This document shows positions 11,560 through 54,116 of a stretch of 64,000 nucleotides of DNA, in pieces. Source of the stretch: Ruficoccus sp. ZRK36. Lineage in GTDB: Bacteria; Verrucomicrobiota; Verrucomicrobiia; Opitutales; Cerasicoccaceae. The notes below the pieces were generated by a model. The model ran no database searches and was not told where the DNA came from. It worked only from the letters and a program-made list of their open reading frames with translations. The DNA lies in NCBI RefSeq assembly GCF_019603315.1, contig NZ_CP080649.1, positions 1,627,501 to 1,691,500 of the forward strand. Direction: 5' to 3'. The translations under genes were made by a program, and so were the position numbers. Within the stretch, counting starts at the first letter, position 1. Every line of letters starts with the position of its first letter.

Positions 11560-11599
11560 ATGATCACAACACCCGGCCCTCATTGATTGAGTTTCCAAT

Positions 11600-23245: not shown

Positions 23246-23251
23246 AAAAAG

Positions 23252-38994: not shown

Positions 38995-39446
38995 CTCACC
39001 TCGACCATACGCCTGCAACACACCCAGGCTTTTCGCGTAGAAAGAAATCCCAACCGTACAACCATCAACCCAAGGCTCGGCCCGGCGTTGACTCCCTCAA
39101 GCACCTATATCAACCCTACTGGCTAACGAATCACCGTGGCTCACATCGGGTAACTCGACCAAGACCGCTGCTGCCGCGTCCTTGTTCTGGTCGTGAGTCA
39201 GTGTTGTAAGGATCGTCTGCCCTTCAGAGGTTTCGTTCAAGTACCGCACCTCTAATTTCTGCCTTTCGGCGGTCAGCCTTGCTGTGATTCCTGAGGTTTC
39301 GACGGACGCGTTTGCTGTTTTGGTGGAGAAGATCGGCGACGGACTGCTTCAGCGCTCGAATTGAGGGCTGCGAGAGCTTGAGTCGACCTGTGGGCCATTG
39401 GTTTTGGTTGGATGATTGGCCGATCCAGAGATTACAGATTTCCACG

Positions 39447-39477
39447 AAAAAACCCGCAGTGATTGCTGCGGGTTTTT
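39447..39477 (-). terminator. Intrinsic terminator after tRNA 3' end (right copy)
   Basis: Minus-strand CCCGCA..TGCGGG stem with T-run, identical in stem and loop to 23216-23245. Confidence 0.75.
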
Positions 39478-39484
39478 CAAAAAG

Positions 39485-39512
39485 TGGCGGGATGGACGGG
39501 ACTCGAACCCGC
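39485..39512 (-). repeat. tRNA 3'-end fragment (att core), right copy
   Basis: The same 28 bases as 23252-23279. The DNA beyond 39512 does not provide the 5' half of a tRNA, so the intact gene should lie outside this window, to the right if elements are stacked. Confidence 0.75.
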
Positions 39513-39617: not shown

Positions 39618-39640
39618 TGTGGTAACTTTGTGGTAACCTT
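39618..39640. repeat. Tandem TGTGGTAAC boxes before integrase
   Basis: TGTGGTAACTT is followed directly by TGTGGTAACCTT, an 11-base tandem repeat 35 bp upstream of the recombinase ATG. Possible recombinase or excisionase arm sites. Confidence 0.4.
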
Positions 39641-39674
39641 GACTATCAAATCTAATTGGATAGATGGTATGTGT

Positions 39675-40883
39675 ATGGCTTCAATACGTCGCATGAAAAA
39701 GTCCAAATATTGGATAGCGACCTTCCGCGATAAGAATGGAAGGAGCCTGACTCGTTCGACAAAGATTGTCCACGGAGGAAGCGTTACGGATCGCGGGCAA
39801 AATCGTAAGCGTGCTTTAGAGATAGCTAATGAATTCGAGGATTTGGCACGGGGATTGGCCCGGAATGAGGCCGCGATCAGAAAAACAGCCTTTGAGTTAG
39901 CATCTATTGCTTCCAAGGACCGTGTTTCCGAGGTCTCTGTTCGGGAATTTTTTGAGGAGTATATAGAATTCAAGGCCAATCAAGGTAAAAAACAGAGCAC
40001 AATGGCTCGCTATTCGGGGGTTGTTGAGCGCCTTTTTGAGGCGATAGGGGATAAGGCCCTGGCACCGATCGAGTCGCTCTCTCCGCAGGATATTGAATCG
40101 TTTATCGCCTATAGGTCTAAGCAGGGGAGAGCCCCCAAGACGATATTGAATGACCTAAAGAACCTAAAACCAGCATTCACCCGTTCAATGCGTTATGGTT
40201 CACTTTCCTTTGATCCGATTGCTGCTGTCAATTTTGAGAACTCGGACAGTATGCCTCACTTGCCCTTCCAGCCGAAAGAAATATATGCAATGTTGGATAC
40301 TTTGGAGAGAGTCGACTTGAGTTTGGGAACGGATCCACAAGATTGGATGGTTGTTATTGCGTTAGGCTATTACACTGGGATGCGTCTTGGGGACTGCTCA
40401 AACCGGTTTTGGCATGAATTTGATCTGAATAATAACGTACTTAAATATGTGCCAGAAAAGACAAAAGGCCGGGGTCAGCTTAAAGAAGTTATCGTTCCGG
40501 TTCATCCTGATATGCAGGATATCTTGGCTGGCATGAACAGAGGAATGAAAGGTTTTCTGACGCCCTCAATGCGTGATACTGATAAGCATCGGGACCGCTC
40601 GTGGCTTTCAAAGCAGTTTATCAAGATTATGGAGGCAGCCAATGTTAATTCCATGCCGATTCGAAATCCTGTTAGTGGTAGGTTGTACAACCAGCGGTCA
40701 TTTCATAGCCTAAGGGCAACATGTAATTCAGTGATGGCTAATGCTGGGGTCAGTCAGGAGATCCGTATGCGTGTGGTTGGGCATGCCTCTAAATATATAA
40801 ACTCTGGCTATACTCATTTTGAGCCTAAGGTTGTTGCTGATGCTGTTTTCCGCATCCCACGACTTAAGGGGCATAAAAGCTAA
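39675..40883 (+). CDS. Tyrosine recombinase (phage-type integrase), intact
   Basis: 402 residues from the ATG at 39675 (MASIRRMKKSKYWIATF). An N-terminal arm-binding region is followed by a SAM-like core domain ('VREFFEEYIEFKANQGKKQ') and a catalytic domain with all expected residues: Arg237 in YTGMRLGD, His344 and Arg347 in HSLR, His370 in VVGHAS and Tyr379 in SGYTHF. It should insert and excise a mobile element at a tRNA 3' end, given its position 160 bp from the att core. It is unlike the decayed integrase at 22.9 kb. It reads toward the gene cluster at 41-46 kb. Confidence 0.92.
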   Translation: MASIRRMKKSKYWIATFRDKNGRSLTRSTKIVHGGSVTDRGQNRKRALEIANEFEDLARGLARNEAAIRKTAFELASIASKDRVSEVSVREFFEEYIEFKANQGKKQSTMARYSGVVERLFEAIGDKALAPIESLSPQDIESFIAYRSKQGRAPKTILNDLKNLKPAFTRSMRYGSLSFDPIAAVNFENSDSMPHLPFQPKEIYAMLDTLERVDLSLGTDPQDWMVVIALGYYTGMRLGDCSNRFWHEFDLNNNVLKYVPEKTKGRGQLKEVIVPVHPDMQDILAGMNRGMKGFLTPSMRDTDKHRDRSWLSKQFIKIMEAANVNSMPIRNPVSGRLYNQRSFHSLRATCNSVMANAGVSQEIRMRVVGHASKYINSGYTHFEPKVVADAVFRIPRLKGHKS

Positions 40884-40998: not shown

Positions 40999-41034
40999 CG
41001 TTGCCCCCCTTTCCGCTTTCGCGGAGGGGCAACG
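40999..41034. terminator. GC-rich hairpin between convergent genes
   Basis: CGTTGCCCC and GGGGCAACG arms with an inner CCGC..GCGG stem. It lies between the convergent recombinase and radical SAM genes. No T-run follows on either strand, so termination is only suggested. Confidence 0.4.
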
Positions 41035-41045
41035 CCGCTTGGGGC

Positions 41046-42020
41046 TTATTCCAAAATGACCCCTTTGTTTTCATAGGGCCTCCACCACTGGTAGCTATTG
41101 CCCTGGCAGTGGTGGAGGAAGCGCAGCTTGTGGGGTGCGATCTTTTTCACTAATGCGAGGTAGGCTTGCCGGGCATGGCCTTCGCGGCGGTAGCCATCCA
41201 TGGCGTCCGGTAGTTGGTAGGCCAAAGTGGTGTAGCCTGCTTGCAGCAAGGCCTTGGCGGTCGTGCGGACGGAACTTTGGTGCCGGCTGATGAATTCTGT
41301 CCAGACGTGCTCACAACGCATGGGGCGGATGGCCTGGAAGATGTCGCGGGCAAATTTCCGATACTCCTTCTGTGGCAAGATCGGCCCGACCACGACGCAG
41401 GTGCGGTAGCCCTCGTTTTGGAGTTGATGAAGCGAGGCAATGCGTTGGGCGGGAGTCGGTGTGCCCGCTTCGAGCGCGGCAGCGAGCGACTCATCGAGCG
41501 TGCTCAGTGAGACGCCGTAGATCATCCGCTCTTTATGCTCTTTTAATGCCTCGGCGATCATGGGAAGCAGATTTCCCCGGCTGAGCAAACGGATCTGCCA
41601 GTGAGTGGCTTTTAGAATACTGCGGCAGATTTCAATGGTCTCATGGGAGAGTTCTTCGTTGGCGCCGACATCGACTTGGGGCGAGCCCAGCACGACCCGC
41701 CGATCGTTCGGGTCGCTGTACTTGGCGGCATAGGTGCGCCCGTCGTAAAGCTGTCGATGCAGGATGTCGGCCGCGTGTCTGCGGCGGATAACGGAACCGC
41801 CCAGTGTAAACGGGCTGAGAGGAGAAAGCGGCGAGCACTTTTTTAACAGTTCGGGCGTGAGGCAGTATGCGCAGGAAAAGGCGCAGGTGCTGCCCGCACT
41901 GAAGGAAAAACCGTCGCACAATTGCTTCGCCTGGTAGTGCGGGTTTTTGCGCAGTATCTTGGGGGAGGATGTGTAGAGAACTGGCTTTCCGTTCATGGTT
42001 TTGGGTGTGATTGACATCAT
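41046..42020 (-). CDS. Radical SAM protein, spore photoproduct lyase-like
   Basis: 324 residues. The iron-sulfur motif is C46-x3-C50-x2-C53 (CAFSCAYC). 'VVLGSPQVDVGANEELSHETIEICRSIL' and 'IRLLSRGNLLPMI' are like those in SPL-type radical SAM enzymes. A C-terminal 'MRCEHVWTEFISRHQSS' and a His-rich 'LRFLHHCQGNSYQWWRPY' follow. It is the last gene of the leftward cluster and starts 36 bp after a terminator. Chemistry would begin with SAM cleavage; the substrate is unknown. True SPL repairs thymine dimers of spores, but this relative sits in a mobile-looking cluster, so a DNA- or protein-modifying role is open. Confidence 0.82.
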   Translation of the reverse strand: MMSITPKTMNGKPVLYTSSPKILRKNPHYQAKQLCDGFSFSAGSTCAFSCAYCLTPELLKKCSPLSPLSPFTLGGSVIRRRHAADILHRQLYDGRTYAAKYSDPNDRRVVLGSPQVDVGANEELSHETIEICRSILKATHWQIRLLSRGNLLPMIAEALKEHKERMIYGVSLSTLDESLAAALEAGTPTPAQRIASLHQLQNEGYRTCVVVGPILPQKEYRKFARDIFQAIRPMRCEHVWTEFISRHQSSVRTTAKALLQAGYTTLAYQLPDAMDGYRREGHARQAYLALVKKIAPHKLRFLHHCQGNSYQWWRPYENKGVILE

Positions 42021-42055
42021 TGAAGTGTGGGTTGGTGATTGATGGGTTGAGGTGA

Positions 42056-42085
42056 ATAAAAAAGGCCGACCTGGCGGGTCGGCCC
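42056..42085 (-). terminator. Terminator T1 (between family A gene and radical SAM)
   Basis: Minus-strand GGGCCGACC..GGTCGGCC stem followed by six T, 36 nt before the radical SAM start codon. Confidence 0.8.
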
Positions 42086-42094
42086 TTGCGGAGT

Positions 42095-42592
42095 TCAGTC
42101 ATCGGAATCGGTCCGGCTGTTGAAGTAATGCATGGCTCGGTCTCGCCTGGCATGCATCCATGTATTGATCTCGTGGATACACATGTCGTTTGCCTCGAGG
42201 AGGACGCGCTCCATCTCGTAGAGTTGAAGCAGGCTAAGCATGTGCTGGGCTGGCAGGATGAACATAGGTTCGCAGCTCGGATGAATGCTGTGCTCAATCA
42301 GGATGGAAGTGGCCTCAATGGCCGAGACCGTGCCTTGGCGGTAGCAGTCCCGCAGGCAGTCCATTTCTGGCCGCTGGGATCCGGTAAACGGAGACGCCGA
42401 TGGCAGCAGCCCGCCGGGGATGTCTCCAAGTCGGTAGTGCTGATCCGGGCTGGATGTGTAGAGCTGGATCGCTTCCAGAAGCGTGAATTCGGCGCCGATA
42501 AGGTTGTTTTCGGCGATCAGTTTAAAGGCGTCCCAGAAGGCTTTTTCGGCCTTGGGCGATACGTAGTTAGGTTTTGGGGATGATGGTGTCAT
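42095..42592 (-). CDS. Unrecognised protein, family A paralogue 1
   Basis: 165 residues from the ATG at 42592 (MTPSSPKPNYVSPKAEKAFWD). Predicted mostly helical. Shares with 42671-43306 and 45256-45813 an opening 'FWDAF/FWAAY/FWDAY', a central 'sAIEAtsiliEhSIHP' matching 'AIHAIHAEIEMSP', and an ending 'LLQLYEMERVLLEANDM..INTWMHARRDRAMHYF'. No catalytic motif, signal peptide or membrane segment. Flanked by terminators on both sides. The function is not known to me. Confidence 0.75.
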   Translation of the reverse strand: MTPSSPKPNYVSPKAEKAFWDAFKLIAENNLIGAEFTLLEAIQLYTSSPDQHYRLGDIPGGLLPSASPFTGSQRPEMDCLRDCYRQGTVSAIEATSILIEHSIHPSCEPMFILPAQHMLSLLQLYEMERVLLEANDMCIHEINTWMHARRDRAMHYFNSRTDSDD

Positions 42593-42622
42593 GATGGTGC
42601 TTGAGTTGTGGGTTGAGGGCAT

Positions 42623-42654
42623 AAAAAAGCGCAGGCAGCCGGAGCCACCTGCGC
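42623..42654 (-). terminator. Terminator T2
   Basis: Minus-strand AGCGCAGG..CCTGCGCT stem with T-run. It is 17 nt after the stop at 42671 and about 31 nt before the start at 42592. Confidence 0.8.
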
Positions 42655-42670
42655 TGGTTTCGTTATAGGT

Positions 42671-43306
42671 TTAGTCTGTCGTCTGGTCGGTTTCTTCGGC
42701 TTCTTCGGCCTGATCTGTGGGCGTTGATTCTGATTCCAGCCCATCTGCATAGCTGTGACAGAAATCCAATACCTCATCATAGTACCGGGCGCGGGCGTTG
42801 CGGCGTGTGAGCCAGCGCATCAGGTTTTCGGTGTTGTGTATGGAGTATTCCAATACACCGGCTTCGATCTCGTATAACTCGATCAGGGCCTGCATGTCCT
42901 CTCGGCTTGCTTTTAGCAGCGGGTTGGGGACCAGCGGTGGTGACATTTCGATCTCAGCGTGGATTGCGTGAATCGCTGCGATGCGGCCCGCGTGAAAGAG
43001 GTCCTTCAAGGCGTCGGTCAGGCGTGCGGATGCCAGCATGTCAGCGAGGTCGAGTTCGTCAGCTCCGCAGTGGCGACCTTCGCTGTGAGCGCTGATGCGG
43101 CGGATGCGCGACGAGTCAATCGGGTAGCCCTCTTCGGTGATGTATAAGCCCGATAAAATGTCCTGGGCTTGGCGTACCTTGCCTTGCTGCACGCAGGCGT
43201 ACGCGGCCCAGAACTCCTGGCTTACCGGCGTGAGGGCCGGACCTTTTTCCATGTGCGAAATCAGGTGGTAGGGTGTGGTTATGAGGTTGGTTTTTATCTT
43301 AGTCAT
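42671..43306 (-). CDS. Unrecognised protein, family A paralogue 2
   Basis: 211 residues from the ATG at 43306 (MTKIKTNLITT). The frame is open further upstream, but that part overlaps the next gene and is unlike a protein. Family A motifs: 'SQEFWAAYACVQQGKVRQAQDIL', 'LKDLFHAGRIAAIHAIHAEIEMSP', 'ALIELYEIEAGVLEYSIHNTENLMRWLTRRNARARYY'. It ends in an acidic tail rich in Glu and Thr. It begins ten bases after the stop of 43317-44000, so the two are translated from one message. Confidence 0.75.
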   Translation of the reverse strand: MTKIKTNLITTPYHLISHMEKGPALTPVSQEFWAAYACVQQGKVRQAQDILSGLYITEEGYPIDSSRIRRISAHSEGRHCGADELDLADMLASARLTDALKDLFHAGRIAAIHAIHAEIEMSPPLVPNPLLKASREDMQALIELYEIEAGVLEYSIHNTENLMRWLTRRNARARYYDEVLDFCHSYADGLESESTPTDQAEEAEETDQTTD

Positions 43307-43316
43307 TTGTTTGGGA

Positions 43317-44000
43317 TTAGTTGTTGGGTTTGAGGTTGATGGCCTGGCCGTGGACAAGTCCTCGGCAAGCCTCGGCGGAGGCGTGGATGTCACCTTCTCT
43401 CGGTGTGCGCGGTGCGAAGGCGTACCCGTGTGAAGTGACGTAAAAGACGAGGCGGATGTCCGCTCGCTGGATGACGATGCAGGCCTCTCCCATCGTCGTG
43501 GTGTCGGCCTTGACTCGCGTGATCCCTTTTTCTGGGAGATGCTGGAAGGCCAATCGGAAAGGCACGGCGTCGAAGACCAGGATGTACCCTTCGTGCTGCA
43601 CGTAAGGAATACCCTGATCGTTGAGGTGGAGCGTGGTCTTGGCGCTGGATGCCAGCTTGCGGTCCTGACCCGGGCACAGAATAAGAATGCCCGCGTCGAT
43701 GTCGGGCGCGTCAGTGTCTGCGGTCTCCTCGGTGTTGCCTGTCTCGCCGAAAATTTCATCGAATGTATCGACGATGTTGGTGGTGTCGTTGGCCGACTGG
43801 GAGAGCGTCAGCAGTTGGCTCACGCGGTCGTCGTCGAGCGGAAGGATGTACTGCTCTTCGCCGGGGGTCGCGCAGCCGAAGTAATACCAGTCGCCGGGGC
43901 AACGGTAGAGGGCCCAGGCGCTTTCGGGGCTGCCGAAGCGCTTGTCTTTGCCGATGTTCAGAATCGGAATGGTGGTTGTATTGGGAGGTGATTGTTTCAT
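43317..44000 (-). CDS. Unrecognised protein, family B paralogue 1
   Basis: 227 residues from the ATG at 44000 (MKQSPPNTTTIPI). Aligned with 44098-44742 over most of its length: 'KRFGSPESAWALYRCP' / 'TRVGRPEGGWGLYLTP', 'QYILPL' / 'RYLIPV', 'NDTTNIVDTFDEIFGE', an acidic stretch, 'ILILCPGQDR' / 'ILSLVPSRDR', 'GIPYVQHEGYILVFD' / 'GIPYLVFGDICLVFD'. Looks soluble with alpha/beta character. No known catalytic residues. A terminator (T3) lies 37 nt upstream of its start. Confidence 0.75.
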   Translation of the reverse strand: MKQSPPNTTTIPILNIGKDKRFGSPESAWALYRCPGDWYYFGCATPGEEQYILPLDDDRVSQLLTLSQSANDTTNIVDTFDEIFGETGNTEETADTDAPDIDAGILILCPGQDRKLASSAKTTLHLNDQGIPYVQHEGYILVFDAVPFRLAFQHLPEKGITRVKADTTTMGEACIVIQRADIRLVFYVTSHGYAFAPRTPREGDIHASAEACRGLVHGQAINLKPNN

Positions 44001-44036
44001 GGTTTTATGGATGGTTGAGGGTTGGCTCTTGGGTGC

Positions 44037-44068
44037 AAAAAAGGAGCAACCGGTTGGGGTTGCTCCTT
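44037..44068 (-). terminator. Terminator T3
   Basis: Minus-strand AAGGAGCAACC..GGTTGCTCCTTTTTT. It lies between the two family B genes, 37 nt before the start at 44000. Confidence 0.8.
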
Positions 44069-44097
44069 GCGAAAAGAATGGTTTCTTTCGTGATGGA

Positions 44098-44742
44098 TCA
44101 GGCATTCGGGTCGCTCTCGATGATTCGCGATGGCGTGACATGAATCGCCTTGTCATGGGTTTTAACTACGGTCTCGTCGCAGTAATGAAAGACGATGGTC
44201 GTCTCTGCTTGCCGCAGGTTGAACGTGGGGTTGTTGTCAGTGTCAGCTAGGCTGCCTTCAATGCTTGTGCAGCTGTGTGGGCTGAGTTTTTTGATGGCCG
44301 AGCGGTAGCTCGGGGTGTCAAAGACCAGGCAAATATCGCCGAAGACGAGGTACGGGATTCCGGCATGGTTGCAGAGCCCGACGGCCTCCGGCCCGACTCC
44401 CCAGATGCGGTCACGGCTGGGAACCAGAGAGAGGATATCCTCTTCGAGTGGGGCGTCCTGCTCCGCGTTGGCGGATTCATCGGCGGACTCGCCAATGATG
44501 GCATTTTCGAGTTGGCGAAGGATGGACGTTGTCGCATTCGCCGTGTCAGCGACGGCTAAAAATGCCTCCTGCATGGACGTGCGGACCGGGATCAGGTAGC
44601 GCGGTCCTGTGGGCAGATCGCTGGCCATGTAGGGCAAACGATCCGGCGTAAGATACAGTCCCCATCCGCCTTCGGGGCGACCCACACGGGTGTCATGAGT
44701 CATGGATACGATGAGGGGTGAGTGGTTGTTGGCTGGTGTCAT
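44098..44742 (-). CDS. Unrecognised protein, family B paralogue 2
   Basis: 214 residues from the ATG at 44742 (MTPANNHSPLIVSMTHD). Shares the family B pattern with 43317-44000, including the Gly-x-Pro-Glu start motif, the acidic middle ('GESADESANAEQDAPLEED') and GIPYLVF..CLVFDTPSYRSAIKKL. It is the last gene of a three-gene run (185, 152, 214 residues) that has no terminator inside. Function not recognised; soluble. Confidence 0.75.
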   Translation of the reverse strand: MTPANNHSPLIVSMTHDTRVGRPEGGWGLYLTPDRLPYMASDLPTGPRYLIPVRTSMQEAFLAVADTANATTSILRQLENAIIGESADESANAEQDAPLEEDILSLVPSRDRIWGVGPEAVGLCNHAGIPYLVFGDICLVFDTPSYRSAIKKLSPHSCTSIEGSLADTDNNPTFNLRQAETTIVFHYCDETVVKTHDKAIHVTPSRIIESDPNA

Positions 44743-44780
44743 AATAGGTAATGAATGGGTTTGTGGTGAGTGCGTGTGAA

Positions 44781-45239
44781 CTAGATGTACCAAATGATTC
44801 TTTTCCAGGGCGCGTGCTTGTGCTCGCGGGCATTGAGTGTCGAGGGGCGAGCCAGAATTACGGCCTTGTCCAGCCGTTGCGGATCGACGTCCGTCTCGTC
44901 GTCGAACATCGCGATCAGCATGAGGTCCTGGCCGAGCCAGAAGCCAAGCGACACCCCGTTCTCGCCTCGGATGATGCCGATGGGGGTGGCGGAAAGTTCG
45001 ATCAGTTGCAGAGCGGTGATGAAGGTGGGCGGTGTCAGCTCGACGGTCTGTGAGTTGACCAGGTCAAGCAGGCGGTATTGGCCGAGCGCTTCCCGGATGA
45101 GCATGGCCTCTTCCGAGAGAGTGAGCATGGCGCAATCGGGAGGAAGCAGCACTGGAGCGTTCTTATCCGCGTTGCTGGATGCATTTGTATTGGCGTTTGG
45201 ATACGTGTGTTTACGTTTCTTTGAGAATGGATTTTTCAT
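44781..45239 (-). CDS. Unrecognised small protein in the cluster
   Basis: 152 residues. A basic, Lys/Asn/Ala-rich N-terminus (MKNPFSKKRKHTYPN..) is followed by a compact domain: 'LTLSEEAMLIREALGQYRLLDLVNS', 'PPTFITALQLIELSATPIGI', 'FWLGQDLMLIAMFDDETDVDPQRL'. The last part may be a divergent relative of family B, but the match is too weak to call. It starts 17 bases after the family A gene at 45256 ends, and its message runs on into 44098-44742. Confidence 0.7.
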   Translation of the reverse strand: MKNPFSKKRKHTYPNANTNASSNADKNAPVLLPPDCAMLTLSEEAMLIREALGQYRLLDLVNSQTVELTPPTFITALQLIELSATPIGIIRGENGVSLGFWLGQDLMLIAMFDDETDVDPQRLDKAVILARPSTLNAREHKHAPWKRIIWYI

Positions 45240-45255
45240 AGTAATGGGGTTGAGG

Positions 45256-45813
45256 TTAGCATGTGAGGGTGGCGATTCGGCGTGCGGTTTGAATGGTCGA
45301 GAAGTAGTACTGGGCGCGGTCCTGTCGCTCGCTTAGCCAGGTGCCCAAATGGCAGCCGCCGATGTTGGCCGAGTTGAGGGTTTCGGCTTCCATTTCATAG
45401 AGGGCGGTCAGCGCTTGGGCCTGAATAATGCGCAGGTCCGTGTCGATCATGGGGAATATGCGTGGACTCAGCTCGATCTCCAGGTGTGCGGCGTGGATCG
45501 GGCGCAGGCGTCCCTGCATGACCAGGTCGTGGAGGACATCGCTGGTGCCGGATGCGGCCAGTAGTTCCTCCCACGTTAGCTCGGTCGCGTAAAGCGGCAG
45601 GCCGTGTGCGAGGGCATCCAGCATGGCGACTCGCCGGGGGCTTTCGTCCTGGTTTTTATCGGAGGTGTATGCGGCGTTGAGGGCTTGTTGGGCCGCTTCG
45701 TCATCGCCGTTCACGATCGCTTGGTACGCGTCCCAGAATGGGCCGCTGGCCTCGATTTGAGGCCCACGTGCCATGCGTCGAAACAGGGTTTTGGGTGTGA
45801 TAATGTTTTTCAT
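45256..45813 (-). CDS. Unrecognised protein, family A paralogue 3
   Basis: 185 residues. Family A signature: 'SGPFWDAYQAIVNGDDEAAQQALNAAY', 'LHDLVMQGRLRPIHAAHLEIELSP', 'ALTALYEMEAETLNSANIGGCHLGTWLSERQDRAQYYF'. It is the clearest member of the family and a good query for searches. It starts 31 nt after terminator T4 and is the first of a three-gene run. No domain recognised. Confidence 0.75.
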   Translation of the reverse strand: MKNIITPKTLFRRMARGPQIEASGPFWDAYQAIVNGDDEAAQQALNAAYTSDKNQDESPRRVAMLDALAHGLPLYATELTWEELLAASGTSDVLHDLVMQGRLRPIHAAHLEIELSPRIFPMIDTDLRIIQAQALTALYEMEAETLNSANIGGCHLGTWLSERQDRAQYYFSTIQTARRIATLTC

Positions 45814-45843
45814 AGTTGGTTAATGTAGTTATGGGTGAATACG

Positions 45844-45872
45844 GAAAAGGCGGGGCCGTTCAGACCCCGCCT
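45844..45872 (-). terminator. Terminator T4
   Basis: Minus-strand GAGGCGGGGT..GGCCCCGCCTTTTCC, about 20 nt after the stop at 45892 and 31 nt before the start at 45813. Confidence 0.75.
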
Positions 45873-45891
45873 CGCTATGCGTGCTTGCCGC

Positions 45892-46395
45892 TTAGGCGAC
45901 AAAGGCTGGTTGTAGTTGGGCTTGGGGAGTGACAGGTTTGTCCACCCAGGGCGTGTCCAGCGCAGAGAGCCGGGTAAGGAGCGCGTCGGCTCCGTCGATA
46001 GAAGACAACTGTCGTTGTAGGGTTAGTGCGGCGGACTTTGCGCCTTTGATCCGTGCGCCTTCGAGTACTCCGCCTAGCAGCGAATCGAGGGTGTCGAGCG
46101 CCGCTTCCAGTGCGCTGATTGCCTGCTCTGGTGAGGCTTCGGGCGGTACGACGATCAGAAATCGTCGCCAGGCTGCCGTGTGTTTGCGGCTGCCGGATTT
46201 GTCCAGCGGAGCGGCTGCTCCGAGGGCTTCAGAGCGGTCTTTGACGAACTGGAACTGCTCTGCTTTGAGCCTATCGCGGAAGGGGTAACCTCCGGTCACG
46301 TCGATGATAAGTTCGACTTTTTGGTCGGACTCTCGACGTGCGATCAGGTGCGCTGTGGCGGATGTTTTTGTGTTAGTGTTGGCTTGGTCTTGCAT
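45892..46395 (-). CDS. Unrecognised protein, head of the cluster
   Basis: 167 residues. 'SATAHLIARRESDQKVELIIDVTGGYPF' is followed by a 'DRLKAEQFQFVKDRSEALGA' helix, a central 'RFLIVVPPEASPEQAISALEAALDTLDSLLGGV' and a C-terminal helical part. It belongs to neither family A nor B. Soluble, no signal peptide. Bracketed by terminators T5 (upstream) and T4 (downstream), like its neighbours. Function not recognised. Confidence 0.7.
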   Translation of the reverse strand: MQDQANTNTKTSATAHLIARRESDQKVELIIDVTGGYPFRDRLKAEQFQFVKDRSEALGAAAPLDKSGSRKHTAAWRRFLIVVPPEASPEQAISALEAALDTLDSLLGGVLEGARIKGAKSAALTLQRQLSSIDGADALLTRLSALDTPWVDKPVTPQAQLQPAFVA

Positions 46396-46426
46396 ATGTT
46401 TTTACGTGTTGGTTGATGGTTGTATG

Positions 46427-46457
46427 AAAAGAGCGCGGCTTGTTTGACCGCGCTCTG
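46427..46457 (-). terminator. Terminator T5
   Basis: Minus-strand AGAGCGCGG..CCGCGCTCTTTTC stem, 32 nt before the start codon at 46395. Confidence 0.75.
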
Positions 46458-46564
46458 AAAGGTTTTATGGATTTTATATCTGAGGTGGCTTATTGACTTT
46501 TAGTTTCTTCGATCGTAGCTCCACGGGTTGTGGTGCCGGTTTTTGCTTTCCCTAAAAATAGCTA

Positions 46565-46741
46565 CTACAAGAAAAGAATTACTTCGGGCAGCAGTGCTCC
46601 CCGAAGGGGGGCGGGGATGCCCAGTGACATGAATACCTCCCTGAAGAAATAGCGAAGCGGTCTGCTTTTGTGGCCAATGAAACACGTGTTGTGTGAGGTG
46701 GATCGGTTTGGTTTTTGCCTATGAGCTTTTTGCCATGTCAT
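46565..46741 (-). CDS. Possible small protein in the cluster leader
   Basis: 58 codons from an ATG that follows terminator T6 by about 14 nt, the same spacing habit as the other genes of the cluster. The product would be basic at first (MTWQKAHRQKPNRS) with a hydrophobic end (..GALLPEVILFL). No homologue recognised. It may instead be a non-coding leader, so confidence is low. Confidence 0.3.
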   Translation of the reverse strand: MTWQKAHRQKPNRSTSHNTCFIGHKSRPLRYFFREVFMSLGIPAPLRGALLPEVILFL

Positions 46742-46754
46742 GGGTTTATAAATA

Positions 46755-46782
46755 CAAAAAAAGCGCACTGTGTTGGTGCGCT
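46755..46782 (-). terminator. Terminator T6 (leader of the cluster)
   Basis: Minus-strand AAGCGCAC..GTGCGCTTTTTTT. No leftward gene lies upstream of it, so it probably acts as an attenuator in the leader of the cluster message. Confidence 0.7.
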
Positions 46783-47051
46783 TGATTGGTGGGTTTGCCA
46801 CTTTTGTCCTTGGTTGTTGCCACTCTTGAGTTTTTCCTTGGTTAGCATTTAAAAGAAGTACATTTTTTCAGTGACTCGGCCTGGGGCGACGCCCGTCAGG
46901 TTGACTCGCTATTGGTGTTACACCAGGGCCAAAGGCCCGTCCTACCATACGCTGCAACGCAGCATGCTCCCCTCCGAAGTTCCCTTTTATGCATTCGTGT
47001 CGGTTGGGAAGTTTTTAGTCAATACCGACAAAGAGCGGTTTTTGTTGACGC

Positions 47052-47067
47052 ACCGACAATCGTCGGT
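47052..47067. promoter_or_regulatory. XRE-type operator (CCGAC-N4-GTCGG), lipoprotein promoter
   Basis: ACCGACAATCGTCGGT, 6-bp arms, 17 bp before the start at 47084. It is preceded by CCGACA, then AGAGCGGTTT and TTGAC at the same spacing as at 48633. Confidence 0.65.
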
Positions 47068-47083
47068 ATTTCTGGGTTGTATC

Positions 47084-48085
47084 ATGAAAAGGTTGTTTCA
47101 GATTTTTGGGTGTTTGGTTGCAAGCCATGCCCTGCTTTTGCTCACTGGCTGTGGCCAAAGTGATAACGAACCCCCGTCGGAAGAAGTCCGTGCGGCTGTT
47201 GCCAAGGCGATTCCCGCCTCGCTCTCGGTTGTGTCCGTTGAGTACGAGGCGATTCATGTGTCCGAGGGTGCCAGTCTGCTGAAGTTGAAGGCGACGCTGA
47301 AGCCTCGGGAAGATTTATGCCGGTCGATCGGGAAAGTGCTGCGAGGGGCTTCGCTGTTGGAGGTTGTTTACCGCAAAGGAGAAAAGATCGTTGTTTACGG
47401 TGAGGTCGGGGCTCGTCGTCAGGTTGACCGTTGGACGTTGGGACGTGTTTCGATGGAGAAGGACTGGAGGAATTTTCCCCGACCTGTGTCCGGTTTTCCG
47501 GCCGGCAGTGTTATTGCCGGTACGGCCGAGGGTGATGAGGCCGTGAAAGCCTATGAGGCCTGGAAAGCAGAGCAGGAGCAGGCGCGAATCGAGGCTAAGC
47601 GTCAGCAGCAACTGCGTTTGCAGGAAGAGGCTGCGCGTCAGAAAGCTGCGCAGGAAGCCGAGTTGGCGCGTGCGGCTCAGGAAAGGCAAGCGCGGTTGGC
47701 ACGCTTGCAGACAGCGTTGACGCCGGGCAGGCAATACCTCGGGGAGCTGCACTATCGTAAGGATATCCAGCCGGTTCGGTTAAAGATTATTTCGCGGGAA
47801 GGGATTGCCGTTGTGGCCGAGTTGAGTAACCCGGTCATGCCCAGTGCTCGCGGAAAGTTGACCGGGACGATAAATCCCGATGCACAGTCAGAGGAGTACG
47901 CCGTCGTGTTAGCGATGGTGCCTGATGACAGTGAAAACCCGCTTGGTTGGCACCTGTATGGTGATCACAAGGGGATCCTTTCTTTGAACCTGACCGATGC
48001 CGGTGGGTTTGAGGGCGAAGCGGTTTGTGAGTCAGCCGGGCGTGAGTACAGATACAAAATTCGTCTGCAAGCGCTTGGTAATTGA
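47084..48085 (+). CDS. Lipoprotein with charged coiled-coil segment
   Basis: 333 residues from the ATG at 47084, which gives a clean lipoprotein signal (MKRLFQIFGCLVASHALLLLTGC; lipobox LTGC). Residues about 25-140 are a small alpha/beta domain. Residues about 155-215 are a long Glu/Gln/Ala/Arg-rich helix ('EQEQARIEAKRQQQLRLQEE'). The rest is beta-rich ('RQYLGELHYRKDIQPVRLKIISREG'). It should be anchored in a membrane and face the periplasm. It shares its promoter operator with the gene at 48664. Function not known. Confidence 0.82.
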   Translation: MKRLFQIFGCLVASHALLLLTGCGQSDNEPPSEEVRAAVAKAIPASLSVVSVEYEAIHVSEGASLLKLKATLKPREDLCRSIGKVLRGASLLEVVYRKGEKIVVYGEVGARRQVDRWTLGRVSMEKDWRNFPRPVSGFPAGSVIAGTAEGDEAVKAYEAWKAEQEQARIEAKRQQQLRLQEEAARQKAAQEAELARAAQERQARLARLQTALTPGRQYLGELHYRKDIQPVRLKIISREGIAVVAELSNPVMPSARGKLTGTINPDAQSEEYAVVLAMVPDDSENPLGWHLYGDHKGILSLNLTDAGGFEGEAVCESAGREYRYKIRLQALGN

Positions 48086-48282
48086 GGCCGTTGTCAGGTC
48101 GGTTTCGCTGGGGGATGAGTCGGCTACGCGGTTTAGCCTGCGGCCGACCACCCCGATCTTGTTATATGAAAAATCTCGATGTGAAGTTGCCCTGTCTCAT
48201 TTTTTTAAAGCGCAAGCAGGCTTTTTACTACCCCTTGCCAGCCACCGCAGGTGGGTGGATTTTTTGACTGCGCTGGGCTTGT

Positions 48283-48570
48283 TCAGCGCCGGGGAATACC
48301 ACGGTGCTTCATGAGCTTTATCACGCGTTTTTCGCAGGAGTTATTGAGCTTGGGTAGGTTGGGATGGAACAGCTGCCAGAGATCGATTTCGTACCCTTCG
48401 GCAATCTTTTCCAAGGTGTCCAGCCGGATGGCGGTTCGCCGTCCGCCCTCGATGGCCTGGTAGGTTTTGTATGGCAGGTCGAGTAACTCGGCGGTTTCTT
48501 CCTGATAGAGGGCGGTGGTTTGCCTCAGCTCTAAAAGGCGCTCGCGAATGGAAAATGGCTGCTTTTTCAC
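48283..48570 (-). CDS. XRE-type HTH regulator
   Basis: About 95 residues from a GTG at 48570 (VKKQPFSIRERLLELR); a TTG at 48639 would extend it through the operator. HTH_3/XRE domain: 'TTALYQEETAELLDLPYKTYQAIEGGRRTAIRLDTLEKIAEGYEIDLWQLF'. Divergent from the PEP-CTERM gene, with the palindrome CCGACAACTGTCGG between them. Best candidate for binding this operator and the one at 47052, and so for controlling itself and both neighbours. Binding is inferred. Confidence 0.85.
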   Translation of the reverse strand: MKKQPFSIRERLLELRQTTALYQEETAELLDLPYKTYQAIEGGRRTAIRLDTLEKIAEGYEIDLWQLFHPNLPKLNNSCEKRVIKLMKHRGIPRR

Positions 48571-48632
48571 GCGCCTATTTTGCCGACTTTTAGCGTTTTT
48601 ATACACCGACACAGAGCGGTTTCTTATTGACC

Positions 48633-48646
48633 CCGACAACTGTCGG
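48633..48646. promoter_or_regulatory. XRE-type operator, PEP-CTERM promoter
   Basis: CCGACAACTGTCGG, 6-bp perfect arms, 17 bp before the ATG at 48664. The 45 bp around it align with the lipoprotein promoter at about 47025-47070. Confidence 0.65.
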
Positions 48647-48663
48647 TACAGAGTTGCCCTGTC

Positions 48664-49968
48664 ATGTCCTACGTATCATTTACTATTGCACGTAAAATTG
48701 GAAATTTAGCTGCCGTGCTCGTCCTGGCGGTTGTATGTGCCGAAGCAATTGCTTCTGCTGCCACTACGGACGGAGACATCACCAATGTAATGGATGCGGG
48801 TGGAACTGAAGCTTCCCCGGCCCAGTACATACTGGGCGCGTCAGGCCCCTACGATTTGAGCTTGTATGGGACGACAGTTGGGGACTCCACAAGCTGGAAT
48901 CAATTGACCATACAGAACGAATCGAGCCTCACCATTAATACCGGGAATGGATTGACCGTAGGCAGAGAGGAAGGAAGCCATAACAATCGTGTCGATCTCA
49001 ACGCCTCCAGTTTGCGTGCAGATTGGGTTGTCCTGGGGTTCTCGGGGCATGACAATCAAATGAATATCTACAACGGTAGCACCGTCAGTGCGGCCGAGGA
49101 TTTTCGCATTGGCTACAACGCCTCTGCGACCGGTAATAGTGCCACTGTCAGCGGGACAGGATCAAGTCTGACGACTGGGACCTATCTGACGGTGGGTTTC
49201 TACTCGAGCGAGAATAAGCTGAGCATCACAAATGGAGGTCAGGTTACGACAGGAGGAGGTGTGACGATTGGCAATGGTGATTCTTGGTCCGGTTCTGGGA
49301 ACAAAAATCAGGTGGTGGTCGCTGGCTCTCAATCCAGCTTGAGCGTTACCTCCGGGACGCTATGGGTGGGCCGTCTGGGAGATGAAAACAGCGTCCTGGT
49401 CGAGGATGGTGCATTTGTAAATGCGGCCGATGATGTGATTATTGGGGCTCAGGGTGGCAACAACAATGACATTACGCTCAGCGGATTTAACTCCATCTTA
49501 TACGTTGAGAATTCGCTATCATTAGGAGGTGTTGATCCCATGACCAGTTCCTACTCTGGCGGAAATACCTTAACGGTCGAAGATGGCTCCCTGGTTAATG
49601 TTGGCTTCATAGAGATCAATGAGGGAAATGAGACTGCTGGGGATAATGTCATCCGCCTGAACGGAGGTTACATTGCCTTGTGGGGTGACGTGAGCCCAGA
49701 AGTCGATGGATGGCTGAACGATGGACTCATCCTGGTGTGGAACCCTGAAACCTTGTCCTGGGAAGATGCGCTCGGCAGCGAATACTTTGATGTGAGGTAC
49801 CTTGAATCCCCGGAGGATGCTCTCGCTTTTACCGGCTATGACGACCTTGGTGGATACACCATTTTGACATCCGTGGTTCCCGAGCCCTCGACCTATGCGG
49901 CAGCTTTCGCGGTCCTGGCCCTTCTTGCCGTGTGCATGGTTCGTCGTCGTCGCGAGCGGCGGAGGTAG
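48664..49968 (+). CDS. PEP-CTERM beta-helix-like surface protein
   Basis: 434 residues. Hydrophobic signal (IGNLAAVLVLAVVCAEAIASA). The body is made of imperfect repeats of about 35-45 residues of the type 'N.LTI.NGS.V....L.IG....GN.VTVSG..S.L.....L.VG', as in autotransporter-associated or parallel beta-helix proteins. The sorting tag VVPEPSTYAAAFAVLALLAVCMV then RRRRERRR ends it. Likely exported and displayed. Regulated together with the lipoprotein at 47084 by the shared operator. Confidence 0.88.
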   Translation: MSYVSFTIARKIGNLAAVLVLAVVCAEAIASAATTDGDITNVMDAGGTEASPAQYILGASGPYDLSLYGTTVGDSTSWNQLTIQNESSLTINTGNGLTVGREEGSHNNRVDLNASSLRADWVVLGFSGHDNQMNIYNGSTVSAAEDFRIGYNASATGNSATVSGTGSSLTTGTYLTVGFYSSENKLSITNGGQVTTGGGVTIGNGDSWSGSGNKNQVVVAGSQSSLSVTSGTLWVGRLGDENSVLVEDGAFVNAADDVIIGAQGGNNNDITLSGFNSILYVENSLSLGGVDPMTSSYSGGNTLTVEDGSLVNVGFIEINEGNETAGDNVIRLNGGYIALWGDVSPEVDGWLNDGLILVWNPETLSWEDALGSEYFDVRYLESPEDALAFTGYDDLGGYTILTSVVPEPSTYAAAFAVLALLAVCMVRRRRERRR

Positions 49969-50516: not shown

Positions 50517-51065
50517 ATGAAATCAGCAAAGAAAATCGCTCAAGAATCAACCCTCCCCATCACCTACGTCGATTGGTCTCGCCGGGACATTCACGTCCCT
50601 GGAGAGAAGACCATCCGCCCCCGAAGTGGAATCTGGGCTGGGAATGCCCTCCATGAGGCTCTGCAATTTGACCGTGATGATCGAGGGTTATCACCGATGG
50701 TTAAGGCCTTTAAGAGCCACGTTGGTCGTATTGCGCATGAGCACCGATCTGACTGGGAAGTCTATGTGTCGGGAGTCTTCACCGGACGGCTTGACTGGGA
50801 CCTTTTCGGTTCGAAATCGATACAGGTGATGGAGTTTAAATGGATGACGGATTTCCTCCCGTCAAAACCTCGCGATGTCGATGTGCGGCAGATTTCATTG
50901 TATGGGTATGCCCTGAGCCAGGCCTTCCCTCAGCATGATCTGTGGCTAAAAATCGTCTATTTTTTCGGCGGAGATAGAAGCTCACGACCACGCATACGCA
51001 TCTTCAATTTCAAGTATCAAAACCAACTCACTGGCATCGCTCGCCGCCTACTGGAACGGAACTAA
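50517..51065 (+). CDS. PD-(D/E)XK nuclease-like protein (Cas4/RecB type)
   Basis: 182 residues. Residues lining the RecB-type active site are present in order: His46 (AGNALHEAL), Asp93 (TGRLDWDLFG), Glu106 and Lys108 (VMEFKW), and Gln125 (RQISLYGYAL). This is the Cas4/RecB arrangement. There is no Cys cluster for an iron-sulfur site, unlike Cas4, and no other CRISPR genes are near. It would be a DNA-cutting or end-processing enzyme. Its stop is one base before the next start, so the two proteins are made together. Confidence 0.75.
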   Translation: MKSAKKIAQESTLPITYVDWSRRDIHVPGEKTIRPRSGIWAGNALHEALQFDRDDRGLSPMVKAFKSHVGRIAHEHRSDWEVYVSGVFTGRLDWDLFGSKSIQVMEFKWMTDFLPSKPRDVDVRQISLYGYALSQAFPQHDLWLKIVYFFGGDRSSRPRIRIFNFKYQNQLTGIARRLLERN

Positions 51066-51066
51066 C

Positions 51067-51912
51067 ATGGACTCAGAGAAGGTAAAAAACTGGAAATTTG
51101 TTCGTGGTTTTGAGTCAGCTCGACAGGAGGGGTTTTCTGACTATGAACTCCTAATGCTTAGGCTGCGTCTGGGGCGAGAATGCGACAACGAGATTCGCCG
51201 TCGGGTTAGTTGTGTCGAACACGACATCCGACAGTACATACACTGGGAGGGAGCTATCGAGTGCATGATTGCTCCCAAGCGCCCCGACATCCGGCCTTCG
51301 GAAGCCTATTTTGTATTGCCGGTAAGAGATGGTGAAGATGAACAATTTTCGGTACTCATCCTTCCGCCTGCCCCTAAGCGCTGGGCGCTGACCACGTGGT
51401 CATACGACAGTGAGTTTGTCCAAAAGCTCACTCATGCCGACCACCGAGTGAGCGCGGATTGGCTCGACATGATGGTCGAAGAGTTCGGCGTGTGCGATGA
51501 GCAAATTCCTGCCTGGGCAAGCCCTCATATTGGAACGAGTGTGCTCGACATAAGGGCGCATGCGCGATTCCGGCGAGAGCTAGCGGTTGCTCGTGAGCAA
51601 GAAGCACGTTTCAGACTGCATGGACTTTTACCCTGGCTTCAGCCTCGTGGTCTGGACGGCAACGTATCAACTCAGAAGCATATCGTTATCCCAGCTTCCA
51701 ATTTGGACTATGACCCCGAGGAGTCTATCTACATTTTCGAGGTTCGCCTTGGGACTCTAGGTGTCAGCTATTGCCTGATTTCTTGCCCGCATTTTGACCA
51801 TCCATTACTCCTACTGGAACCCTATGTGGGTGCGAAGGAATGGCACCTCTCCGAACCGATCGAAAACCAGTTTTACGAGTTGGTCTCAATGATTCTGCTC
51901 CGGATCGATTGA
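51067..51912 (+). CDS. Unrecognised partner of the nuclease-like protein
   Basis: 281 residues, coupled to the nuclease-like gene. Charged, soluble, no signal peptide. An N-terminal helical part ('GFSDYELLMLRLRLGRECDNEIRRRV') precedes two similar halves: 'IAPKRPDIRPSEAYFVLPVRDGEDEQFSVLILPP' and 'VIPASNLDYDPEESIYIFEVRLGTLGVSYCLISCP'. Each is followed by a Trp-containing stretch, which suggests an internal duplication. No known motif. Probably the specificity or partner subunit of the module. Confidence 0.7.
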   Translation: MDSEKVKNWKFVRGFESARQEGFSDYELLMLRLRLGRECDNEIRRRVSCVEHDIRQYIHWEGAIECMIAPKRPDIRPSEAYFVLPVRDGEDEQFSVLILPPAPKRWALTTWSYDSEFVQKLTHADHRVSADWLDMMVEEFGVCDEQIPAWASPHIGTSVLDIRAHARFRRELAVAREQEARFRLHGLLPWLQPRGLDGNVSTQKHIVIPASNLDYDPEESIYIFEVRLGTLGVSYCLISCPHFDHPLLLLEPYVGAKEWHLSEPIENQFYELVSMILLRID

Positions 51913-51984: not shown

Positions 51985-52269
51985 GTGCCTTTCACCGGGC
52001 TTAAGTATGCCAGCGGCGGCGTTTACCTGCCGCGTCTGGGATTATGGATGGACCCGTCGCGTCCCAAGCCGGGTGCAGTTTTTGTTAGTCATGCCCACAG
52101 TGATCACACAGCGGCTCATCGGGAGGTTATCGTCAGTGCACCGACGGCTAGTCTCATGAGCCTGCGACTTGGTGGTGATCGCCGGGAACATGCGCTGGCG
52201 TTTGGACAGTCAAAGGTTTTTCATCAGGGTGAGATCCCTTTCGCTGGACGCATGCAGGCTTACGGTTGA
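51985..52269 (+). pseudogene. Truncated metallo-beta-lactamase-fold hydrolase
   Basis: 94 codons from a GTG. They match the N-terminus of RNA-processing/exonuclease-type MBL proteins: 'GLWMDPSRPKPGAVFVSHAHSDHTAAHREVIVSAPT' with the HxHSDH metal motif. The family runs over 300 residues and needs further His/Asp ligands, which are absent. The frame ends where the TIR-kinase gene begins on the other strand. It looks like the remnant of a gene cut by a past rearrangement. Confidence 0.6.
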
Positions 52270-54116
52270 ATGAAAATGACCTCGCCAGCAATAGGGCTAT
52301 AGGAGCGGTTTTGAAGTCCAAGAGTGAGGCTGACCGTTTTTCTCCCGTCTACGTAGGCTTCCATGACATCCCCGGGAGCAAGTGTGCGGGAGCTTTCTCG
52401 GTCAGTCTGGCGGATATTGACCGTGAGTTTATCTTCGTACGTCTCGGGGAGATAAATCATTACTGCCGCCTGATTCCTGCGCGCGAAGTTATCACGTAGC
52501 TGCTCCTTCAATATCGCGTAATCGTCCCATAGGATTTGTGGTACGGCTTGAATGGCAGGTGATGAATCGTTGCCGCCAGGGGGAGTGGTTTGCGAGCGGG
52601 TTGGCTGCCTCACATGGGTTTCCAATTCTTGCGTGGTGCTGACCGGCACGGCCTCAGTCGTGACCGCTGCCTGGGTCGAGGGGCGATTCTCCCCGGGGAT
52701 CAGCCACAGCAGACAGGCTATCGTTGCGAGCCCGAGGGTTACCAGCGCTGCAAACGCGTAAAGGGGCTTCCTTTTGTGGGGTGGAGGCGTGTCATTGGCT
52801 GCAAGTAGCTCTGTAAGCCCTTGTCCGAGCGCAATAGCGTCTACCGGGCGGTCTTCGGGCCGCTTGCTTAGGCAACGTAGGATGACCGACTCCAGGCTGG
52901 CTGGAATATTGGGATTGACTGCGCGGGGAGGCGGCGGAGGGGCCTCCAGTATTCGCTTGAGCATGTCGGATATTTGCTCGGAGGCCTGAATTGGTCTTTT
53001 ACCAGTCAAGGCAATGTACATAAGAACTCCGATGGCGTAAACGTCTGCCTGGGTTCCGATTGCGGCAGTCTTGGCCCCGGCCTGCTCGGGAGCCATGTAT
53101 TCGAGGGAGCCCATGACTGAAGGAGCCATTGAAAGGTCTGAAACCGTACGCCCGACCTTGGCCAATCCGAAGTCCAGCAGGCGTACATGGTGGTGTTCGT
53201 CGACAAGGATGTTAGCCGGCTTGAGGTCCCGGTGGACGAGATTGTTTTTATGCAGGACACCAACGACTTCGCATAACGATATAAACAGTCGTATTATTTG
53301 AGCGACATTGAGATGCTCTTGCTCAATATACTGGTCGAGCCGGACACCGTTGATCAAAGGCATGGTGTAAAAGGGGGTGCCTTCAACCTCGCCGGCCTCA
53401 AGGACCGGGACGATGCCGCCATGGTCGATGCCCGCCGTGAGGGCGACCTCACGCAGAAAGCGTTGGCGCGACTCCTGTGTCAGAAGAATACCCCCGCGTG
53501 GGATCTTAAGAGCGACTTTCCGCTTGGGCTCCTGCTGCTCGGCCTCATAAACCAGTGCCATACTTTCCGCGATCAGGCGTGTCAGTCGATATTTACCGAA
53601 GGTTCTGGGCACTTCGTCACTGCGGCCGCCTTTGAGTGTTGGCAAATCTCTTGGTGTTACGGATGGGGGGGATGTGGTACTTCCGGAAGGGGCTTGCGTG
53701 GGGAACATGACGCTCTGAAGTTCCCGGGCCAGTTTGTCAGCGATTGCATCAAGTGAGTCGGGTGAAAGGTCTACCCAGTGTGTTGATGAAATGAAAAGCT
53801 CGAGTGACTGGGCGGGGGAAACGCTCTGCAATCTGACGGGGAAAATCGGTTTGCGGTGGTGCACGGCCCGCTCGACCTCGCGTCTGACGAAGGGTGACTC
53901 ATTGGCGGCTTCTGAGAGCATCAGGATTAGGGTATGGCTCTGTCGCAGGCCGTGAATGATCTCCTCAGCATACTCTTTACCGGGGCGGATGTTGCGTGGG
54001 GCCACCCAGCAGGATAGTCCGCGTTTCTCCAGAGCTTCGACCAGCTTGAGCGCATCTTTGGCATCGCTGGAAGCGTGGGAGATGAAGGCCGAGAAATCCG
54101 ATGAAGAGTTTGTCAT
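52260..54116 (-). CDS. TIR domain-Ser/Thr kinase membrane fusion
   Basis: 618 residues. Residues 7-105 form a TIR domain ('DFSAFISHASSDAKDALKLVEALEKRG', then SPFVRREVERA with Glu80 at the position of the NADase glutamate). Residues 172-436 form a Hanks-type kinase: Lys204 in VALKIP, HRDLKPAN (Asp297, Asn302), DFG (Asp315), 'SLEYMAPEQ'. The glycine-rich loop is degenerate (LIAESMALVYEA). One membrane helix (about 451-473) is followed by an extracytoplasmic tail of about 140 residues. It may sense a signal outside and act through TIR or kinase inside. Divergent from the SLOG-type gene. Confidence 0.88.
   Translation of the reverse strand: MTNSSSDFSAFISHASSDAKDALKLVEALEKRGLSCWVAPRNIRPGKEYAEEIIHGLRQSHTLILMLSEAANESPFVRREVERAVHHRKPIFPVRLQSVSPAQSLELFISSTHWVDLSPDSLDAIADKLARELQSVMFPTQAPSGSTTSPPSVTPRDLPTLKGGRSDEVPRTFGKYRLTRLIAESMALVYEAEQQEPKRKVALKIPRGGILLTQESRQRFLREVALTAGIDHGGIVPVLEAGEVEGTPFYTMPLINGVRLDQYIEQEHLNVAQIIRLFISLCEVVGVLHKNNLVHRDLKPANILVDEHHHVRLLDFGLAKVGRTVSDLSMAPSVMGSLEYMAPEQAGAKTAAIGTQADVYAIGVLMYIALTGKRPIQASEQISDMLKRILEAPPPPPRAVNPNIPASLESVILRCLSKRPEDRPVDAIALGQGLTELLAANDTPPPHKRKPLYAFAALVTLGLATIACLLWLIPGENRPSTQAAVTTEAVPVSTTQELETHVRQPTRSQTTPPGGNDSSPAIQAVPQILWDDYAILKEQLRDNFARRNQAAVMIYLPETYEDKLTVNIRQTDRESSRTLAPGDVMEAYVDGRKTVSLTLGLQNRSYSPIAGEVIFIQP

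Follow-up and report, generated by a model that had tools for sequence, protein, structure and literature searches.

A hairpin-punctuated operon

We analyzed a stretch of 64,000 nucleotides (nt) from Ruficoccus sp. ZRK36 (hereafter the window; contig NZ_CP080649.1, positions 1,627,501 to 1,691,500), in which eight open reading frames (ORFs) on the same strand form an operon of 5.4 kb, running leftward from 46395 to 41046. A previous, sequence-only reading had described eight leftward genes cut up by intrinsic terminators; all eight ORFs are in place and the six hairpins, T1 to T6, were located. The genes are arranged in blocks, in the order P8 / A-P6-B / B-A / A / radical SAM, where A and B are families of paralogues and P6, P8 and the radical SAM enzyme are single proteins. 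Family A has three members, the copy of 185 amino acids (aa) sharing 35% and 31% identity with the other two; the two family B proteins are 28% identical. From right to left, the features are as follows.

46761..46783, minus strand: terminator-like hairpin T6 (simple scan)
46431..46456, minus strand: terminator T5, in the P8 leader (strict scan)
45892..46395, minus strand: P8 protein, 167 aa, the sole operon protein also present at a locus in a third genus
45849..45873, minus strand: terminator T4, before family A (185 aa) (strict scan)
45256..45813, minus strand: family A protein, 185 aa
44781..45239, minus strand: P6 protein, 152 aa
44098..44742, minus strand: family B protein, 214 aa
44043..44068, minus strand: terminator T3, before family B (227 aa) (strict scan)
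43317..44000, minus strand: family B protein, 227 aa, paralogue
42671..43306, minus strand: family A protein, 211 aa, paralogue
42628..42655, minus strand: terminator T2, before family A (165 aa) (simple and strict scans)
42095..42592, minus strand: family A protein, 165 aa, paralogue
42061..42087, minus strand: terminator T1, before the radical SAM gene (simple and strict scans)
41046..42020, minus strand: radical SAM protein, 324 aa, with a CxxxCxxC motif (Pfam Radical_SAM, E 3e-6; phrog_13321, E 2e-14)

The strict scan, which requires a stem of at least 8 pairs with at least 5 G-C and a U tail, recovers T5 to T1; a simpler scan recovers T6, T2 and T1 among the six. Four terminators lie between genes, and T5 and T6 precede the first gene. 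A hairpin with a U tract (T5 to T1) stands before every block start, the next ATG following about 30 to 37 nt past the U run, and the gaps within blocks (10 to 38 nt) have no hairpin. Stems of T5 to T1 contain 10 to 12 pairs, 6 to 8 of them G-C, and end 35, 35, 42, 36 and 43 nt, respectively, before the next ATG; for T2 the distance is 6 nt if the upstream in-frame ATG of that gene counts as its start. The distance of 14 to 37 nt from terminator to ATG given previously agrees at its upper end with our measurements from the U run; we could not reproduce the value of 14 nt. About 365 nt separate T6 from the first ATG downstream, and T6 is therefore not of the same type as T5 to T1.

Related operons that share P8 were found in two further genera: three (L023, L024 and L025) in G005, a genome of another genus in the same family, and one (L055) in G007. 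In these five operons, window included, a hairpin is present in 21 of the 22 gaps of at least 70 nt (19 by the strict scan) and in none of the 10 shorter gaps. The count of 21 includes two imperfect hairpins judged from folds (L024, radical SAM to C2; L023, P8 to A) and two long G007 gaps of 1060 and 268 nt; hairpin flags were assigned by hand, and gene starts for G005 and G007 were picked manually. Among gaps of 70 to 160 nt alone, 19 of 20 carry a hairpin, 17 of them by the strict scan. An additional strict-scan match falls within a gene in two operons (L024, 9360; L025, 11639).

For the host background, we sampled the same chromosome in 20 pieces of 20 kb each (400 kb, 172 close codirectional gene pairs). 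Here a hairpin occurs in 6 of 49 gaps of 60 to 160 nt, giving a Fisher p of about 1e-11, a value that overstates independence because the operons are related and the strict scan gives 19/22. The background contains eight cases, one of them within a long ORF, of a hairpin that follows an upstream gene and precedes an ATG, never consecutively, and two further hairpin-then-ATG cases lie outside the operons in 184 kb of strict-scanned loci. At the background rate of 8/172, finding at least 4 of 7 junctions so equipped has p of about 1.5e-4 for one operon. A lone hairpin followed by an ATG is ordinary in this genome; a consecutive run is not. Since the run is absent from the background and recurs in relatives, the punctuation is not a product of chance.

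An integron-like cassette array, with hairpins acting as recombination sites, would look similar: promoterless cassettes, a hairpin between them and little room before the ATG. The attC core motifs, GTTRRRY and RYYYAAC, are however found together in none of the 21 hairpins (85 nt around each), and the loci largely agree in their gene order. On the absence of the core pair we rejected this explanation, whose probability we put close to nil.

The leaders had been described as A/C-rich and devoid of a clear Shine-Dalgarno (SD) motif. They are indeed poor in G, with 8% G over 35 leaders from the five operons (4 of the 35 rows not being positioned at an ATG), against 18% in 38 host genes and 21% in 127. 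An SD match of at least 4 nt occurs in 3 of the 31 ATG-placed leaders and in 42 of the 127 host genes (Fisher p 0.008); yet only 6 of 38 genes have one in our first host sample, so that the missing motif is largely normal for this host. G-poor leaders would also fit hairpins that act post-transcriptionally, as 3'-end protectors or as processing sites where the message is split into stable fragments, with unstructured A/C-rich leaders remaining for translation. We hold this to be very improbable: U tracts of the terminator type are present, as the scan required, and processing would not need them.

By eye, the P8 leader also holds a 21-codon ORF (46565-46630, minus strand) with a good SD sequence, GGGAGG, and an overlapping hairpin. 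This ORF could be a leader peptide.

Little is recognizable in the operon proteins, as the sequence-only reading had stated. Nine proteins searched against Pfam, PHROGs, NCBIfam and PADLOC gave no convincing match beyond the radical SAM protein and the neighboring integrase; in PADLOC (2023 library) neither the integrase nor any of the eight operon proteins matched a family up to E 1, and the best PHROGs match of P8, phrog_1083 of unknown function, has E 0.19 and is not convincing. Relatives of A (8), P8 (5) and C (5), the latter a family from the G005 operons, have no Pfam match up to E 0.1. Matches to PDB sequences (A profile and GINS PSF3, E 0.02; P8 and a globin, E 0.85) were judged to be chance. 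Structure models of P8 and B (predicted local distance difference test scores of 78 and 74) have no Foldseek match at E 0.001, and we made no use of their top rows in a fold comparison, a type III secretion chaperone for P8 (Z 5.1, root-mean-square deviation 2.9, 76 residues aligned) and a row with Z 3.4, deviation 3.5 and 73 aligned for B. A common small beta domain in C, P6 and B was suspected and is not claimed, profile comparisons giving E 0.4 (C/P6), 0.27 (C/B) and, at a probability of 2%, 0.023 (P6/B).

The radical SAM protein scores 27.8 bits in Pfam, slightly below the cut-off of 29.5; its motif reads CAFSCAYC, and the three cysteines are invariant in a four-row alignment. It had earlier been likened to spore photoproduct lyase (SPL); its scores for that family stay below the cut-offs (SPL, 14.4 bits against 27; photo_TT_lyase, 18.6 against 400). 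Matches to PDB sequences, at E 1.6 at best, were judged to be chance. Relatives occur in G005 and at 17 loci on viral contigs, making this family common to viral contigs and these integrative elements. Nine viral-contig copies, those of the 11 loci examined at which the chosen ORF took in the radical SAM gene, share 49-60% identity with the copy in L024 and 36-44% with that in the window. We rejected the idea that the hairpin travels with this gene: none precedes the 16 viral copies tested, over the 160 nt ahead of the matched region, although several first in-frame ATGs lie further up and part of these 160 nt is coding. Neither the L023 operon nor that of L055, as read, contains the gene, and the viral copies tested have no hairpin just in front; the gene is thus not needed for the layout. 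By eye, a ParB-like gene lies near the radical SAM gene on viral contigs L038, L040 and L044, and a small methylase-like gene on L040 and L044 as well. These viral neighbors suggest a DNA-linked role for the enzyme.

Conservation, upstream module and mobile context

A second copy of the operon resides in the same genome, 788 kb away: window positions 41023-48726 are 99.7% identical to positions 10298-18002 of locus L022. All 25 differences fall within 41025-41298 and 48511-48714, so the 7.2 kb in between (41299-48510) carry none; past 48.7 kb, identity drops to 94% and then to 86%. An identical core with a flank of 86-94% identity suggests a recent gene conversion or exchange between two different mobile elements.

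The three G005 clusters have the order B, P8, A, P6, C; L023 and L024 add a second A, and L024 and L025 have the radical SAM gene. On the question raised previously, whether the families co-occur, A and B are both present in the G005 clusters, together with P8, P6 and matching hairpins. The terminators are conserved in position: the window and all three G005 operons have one in front of P8, of the first A and of C or the second B; before the radical SAM gene, a hairpin is present in two of the three operons having the gene (window and L024). For the seven proteins common to L023 and L024, the ratio of nonsynonymous to synonymous substitution rates (dN/dS) is 0.13-0.27, indicating purifying selection on the proteins in this one pair of relatives. 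Between the same two operons, 33 of the 46 pairs in four hairpins are unchanged; one base differs in a further 4 pairs and both bases in 2, with pairing preserved.

At the G007 locus, P8 is 39% identical and its operon has six hairpins of this style; A, B and the radical SAM gene were not found in that genome, P8 being the only one of the families searched that is in common. Scans of 384 genomes of the class and of 387 of the phylum, samples that overlap and cover part of the phylum, detected P8 in G000 and G007, and a separate contig scan detected it in G005. Family A is present in G000 and G005 among 88 relatives and among 273 genomes of the order, and family B in the same two among 10 genomes of the family. 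No relative of P8 was found in IMG/VR or INPHARED, PLSDB gave one weak plasmid row (E 0.07), and family B has no match in IMG/VR. In the literature library that we searched, we found no account of such an operon.

Upstream of the operon, the following features are found.

46871..48085, plus strand: lipoprotein-like gene (named by eye) between the candidate control element and the operon; no Pfam match; L064 relative at 35%
48171..48259, minus strand: conserved 89-nt candidate control element (DNA or RNA), model R1
48283..48639, minus strand: XRE-type helix-turn-helix regulator (HTH_3, 24.5 bits against a cut-off of 23)
48664..49968, plus strand: repeat-rich protein with a PEP-CTERM-like end (PEP-CTERM, 19.3 bits against a cut-off of 20.7)
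50517..51065, plus strand: PD-(D/E)XK-like nuclease of the module (weak Pfam match, E 0.005; relatives in L024, L025 and L064, 33-49%)
51067..51912, plus strand: 281-aa protein beside the nuclease (relatives in L027, L025 and L064; no Pfam match)

The 89-nt element directly follows the XRE gene. It recurs in the second copy, in L023, in L024 (twice) and in L025, marking the upstream side of five operon copies in two genera; in the window, the opposite-strand lipoprotein-like gene separates it from the operon. A model search of 19 genomes returned the known copies and one new place in G005, L064, where the nuclease, the 281-aa protein and the lipoprotein-like gene are present without an operon within the stretch read. 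A gene similar to that of the repeat-rich protein is seen, by eye, upstream in L024. The element marks the module and may be a promoter, an operator or an RNA. Rfam at its gathering threshold (window, L022, L024, L025 and L055) detects only two tRNAs, in L022 and L024; we set aside matches below that threshold. The long message, proposed earlier to begin near 46.85 kb, may accordingly start further up, with the element at 48171-48259. Judged from sequence, A, B, C, P6, P8 and the 281-aa protein are families unnamed in the libraries searched that share a recurring neighborhood.

To the left of the operon lie two island features.

39630..40883, plus strand: tyrosine integrase of a tRNA-Asp island, outside the conserved unit
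39491..39510, minus strand: remnant of a tRNA-Asp 3' end (attachment site)

The intact tRNA-Asp stands past the window edge, at 81847-81923 in window numbering. A further remnant lies at 23258, and a 360-bp direct repeat (22922-23279 and 39163-39512, 87%) carries the two remnant tRNA-Asp 3' ends. Two islands seem to stand in tandem at tRNA-Asp, and the operon seems to lie inside an island of about 42 kb. In L022, a large serine recombinase beside tRNA-Ser takes the place of the tyrosine integrase, while L024 ends in a serine recombinase beside tRNA-Asn and L023 in one recognized by eye; a site-specific recombinase is thus found at a tRNA gene in the window, L022 and L024. Because the recombinases differ between copies, we take the operon as cargo of mobile elements. 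The sequence-only reading had inferred a mobile system and noted an intact integrase next door; the set is mobile and co-inherited, and the integrase falls outside the conserved unit.

L022 also has a relaxase-like gene (Relaxase, E 0.0012, below the cut-off) and a MobC/NikA-like gene (NikA-like, 28.2 bits against 27) about 11 kb past P8. The relaxase, which probably belongs to the element of the second copy, has a 38% identical relative in L025.

Other neighbors are reminiscent of defense genes. The gene at 52260-54116 encodes a fusion of a TIR domain with a protein kinase domain (PADLOC PD-T4-6-like kinase) and adjoins that of a patatin-like phospholipase (54846-55937); a PDC-S06-like ATPase is encoded close to the second copy, and type I restriction genes lie, by eye, beside L025 and L055. 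Also close to the second copy, L027 12024-14262 holds genes that we take to be TcmP-like and Gp37/Gp68-like radical-SAM-type genes.

Transcription through the terminators

We tentatively favor, with somewhat less than even confidence, the view that the operon is cargo carried by integrative elements within one bacterial family and that its long message passes the terminators by means of an element-coded factor. Terminators, their conservation at matching junctions and the mobile context are observed; we infer that one message runs through the terminators and that the resistance is supplied by the element itself. The operon would be transcribed as one long message with an intrinsic terminator ahead of each gene block; stray transcription would die early at these terminators, and the blocks would be expressed together only once RNA polymerase has become terminator-resistant. 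P8 would be the best protein candidate for the antitermination factor, as the sole operon protein kept when the others are replaced, and the 89-nt element after the XRE gene the best nucleic-acid candidate.

Alternatively, each block may be its own transcription unit, with ordinary terminators and with a promoter that lies in the end of the previous gene or overlaps the hairpin and differs from the type scanned. Elsewhere in the genome, single terminators do occur at no more than about 60 nt from the next ATG (8 in 400 kb), the stems of T4 to T1 begin 7-29 nt past the preceding stop codon, and tandem hairpins in some G005 gaps could represent a 3' end followed by a leader. Too little space separates hairpin from ATG to hold a usual promoter, which must therefore either overlap the terminator or precede it, and in the latter case the terminator would have to be read through here too. 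Best promoter scores are slightly higher in front of hairpins than at random positions of the same operons (means of 7.29 and 6.99 of 12); however, no sigma-70-like site of at least 9/12 was found in the 100 nt before any of the 21 hairpins, and the window operon has none on its coding strand either. Overall, separate units strike us as a credible but somewhat unlikely arrangement.

Leaky terminators might instead set a fixed downward gradient of expression, with no antitermination factor. The stop codons lie only 7 and 15 nt from the stems of T1 and T2, where a terminating ribosome could hinder folding; against this, with long GC-rich stems in series, few transcripts would extend as far as the radical SAM gene. 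We find such a gradient distinctly improbable.

Several observations weigh against the terminator-resistant message that we favor. A hairpin precedes P8 too, so that P8 would need read-through or a promoter of its own before it could act. P8 heads the operon in the window and in G007 and comes second in G005, where family B stands ahead of it, and it shows no link to known antiterminators by sequence or fold. The 89-nt element was not found by the model search in G007; it also precedes a lone B gene (L024) and the operon-less locus L064, and its RNA structure is weak, with 12 pairs in one alignment and 4 in another. Only 2 of the 6 G007 hairpins are near the next ATG, the L025 gap from C to the radical SAM gene has no hairpin, and of the 46 pairs compared between L023 and L024, 3 are lost or gained and 4 unpaired in either. 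Finally, the promoter scan has little power, since random operon stretches reach 9/12 in just 2% of cases.

It is a more doubtful proposal that P8 and the 89-nt element together make up a novel system of processive antitermination, distinct from the protein and RNA types known so far, which would drive terminator-punctuated cargo operons on integrative elements of Verrucomicrobiota; the cargo proteins would be swapped between lineages while P8 and the hairpin layout are kept. We consider it unlikely, if still worth stating. As for the A, B, C and P6 proteins, our working guess, prompted by the defense-like genes nearby, is a role in conflict between mobile elements.

Comparison with known systems

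Lambdoid phages and conjugative elements of Gram-positive bacteria are known to use antitermination to get past internal terminators. In the lambda N and Q systems and in HK022 put, terminators are bypassed from a dedicated start region; the likeness to the operon described here is one of general principle, and P8 has no convincing match in PHROGs. Integrative mobilizable elements combine a large serine recombinase with a tRNA target, a relaxase and MobC. The second copy, in L022, resembles them in the serine recombinase beside it at tRNA-Ser and perhaps in the relaxase-like and MobC-like genes about 11 kb past its P8, whereas no relative of the L022 relaxase was found in the window island.

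The closest known cases are the pLS20 conjugation operon and canT of Tn916. On pLS20, conAn enables polymerase to pass more than 20 terminators; conAn operons are described as exceeding 30 kb, contain conjugation genes and begin with the ConAn1 protein and conAn2 RNA (PMC8955417, which also names lambda N and Q and HK022 put). As here, several internal terminators, thought to limit spurious transcription, lie in an operon of a mobile element (PMC8955417). The operon described here differs in being 5.4 kb long, in having no recognized transfer gene and in carrying a hairpin even before P8. In Tn916, canT provides RNA-based read-through of internal terminators within an integrative element, proven by experiment with a 452-bp region (PMC11658703). 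Internal terminators within an integrative element are likewise seen here, whereas our 89-nt element is put forward on conservation and a weak structure. If our reading is true, such control would exist in compact form in another phylum, on integrative elements that carry new protein families, thereby extending antitermination control and providing a small testable system for terminator bypass.

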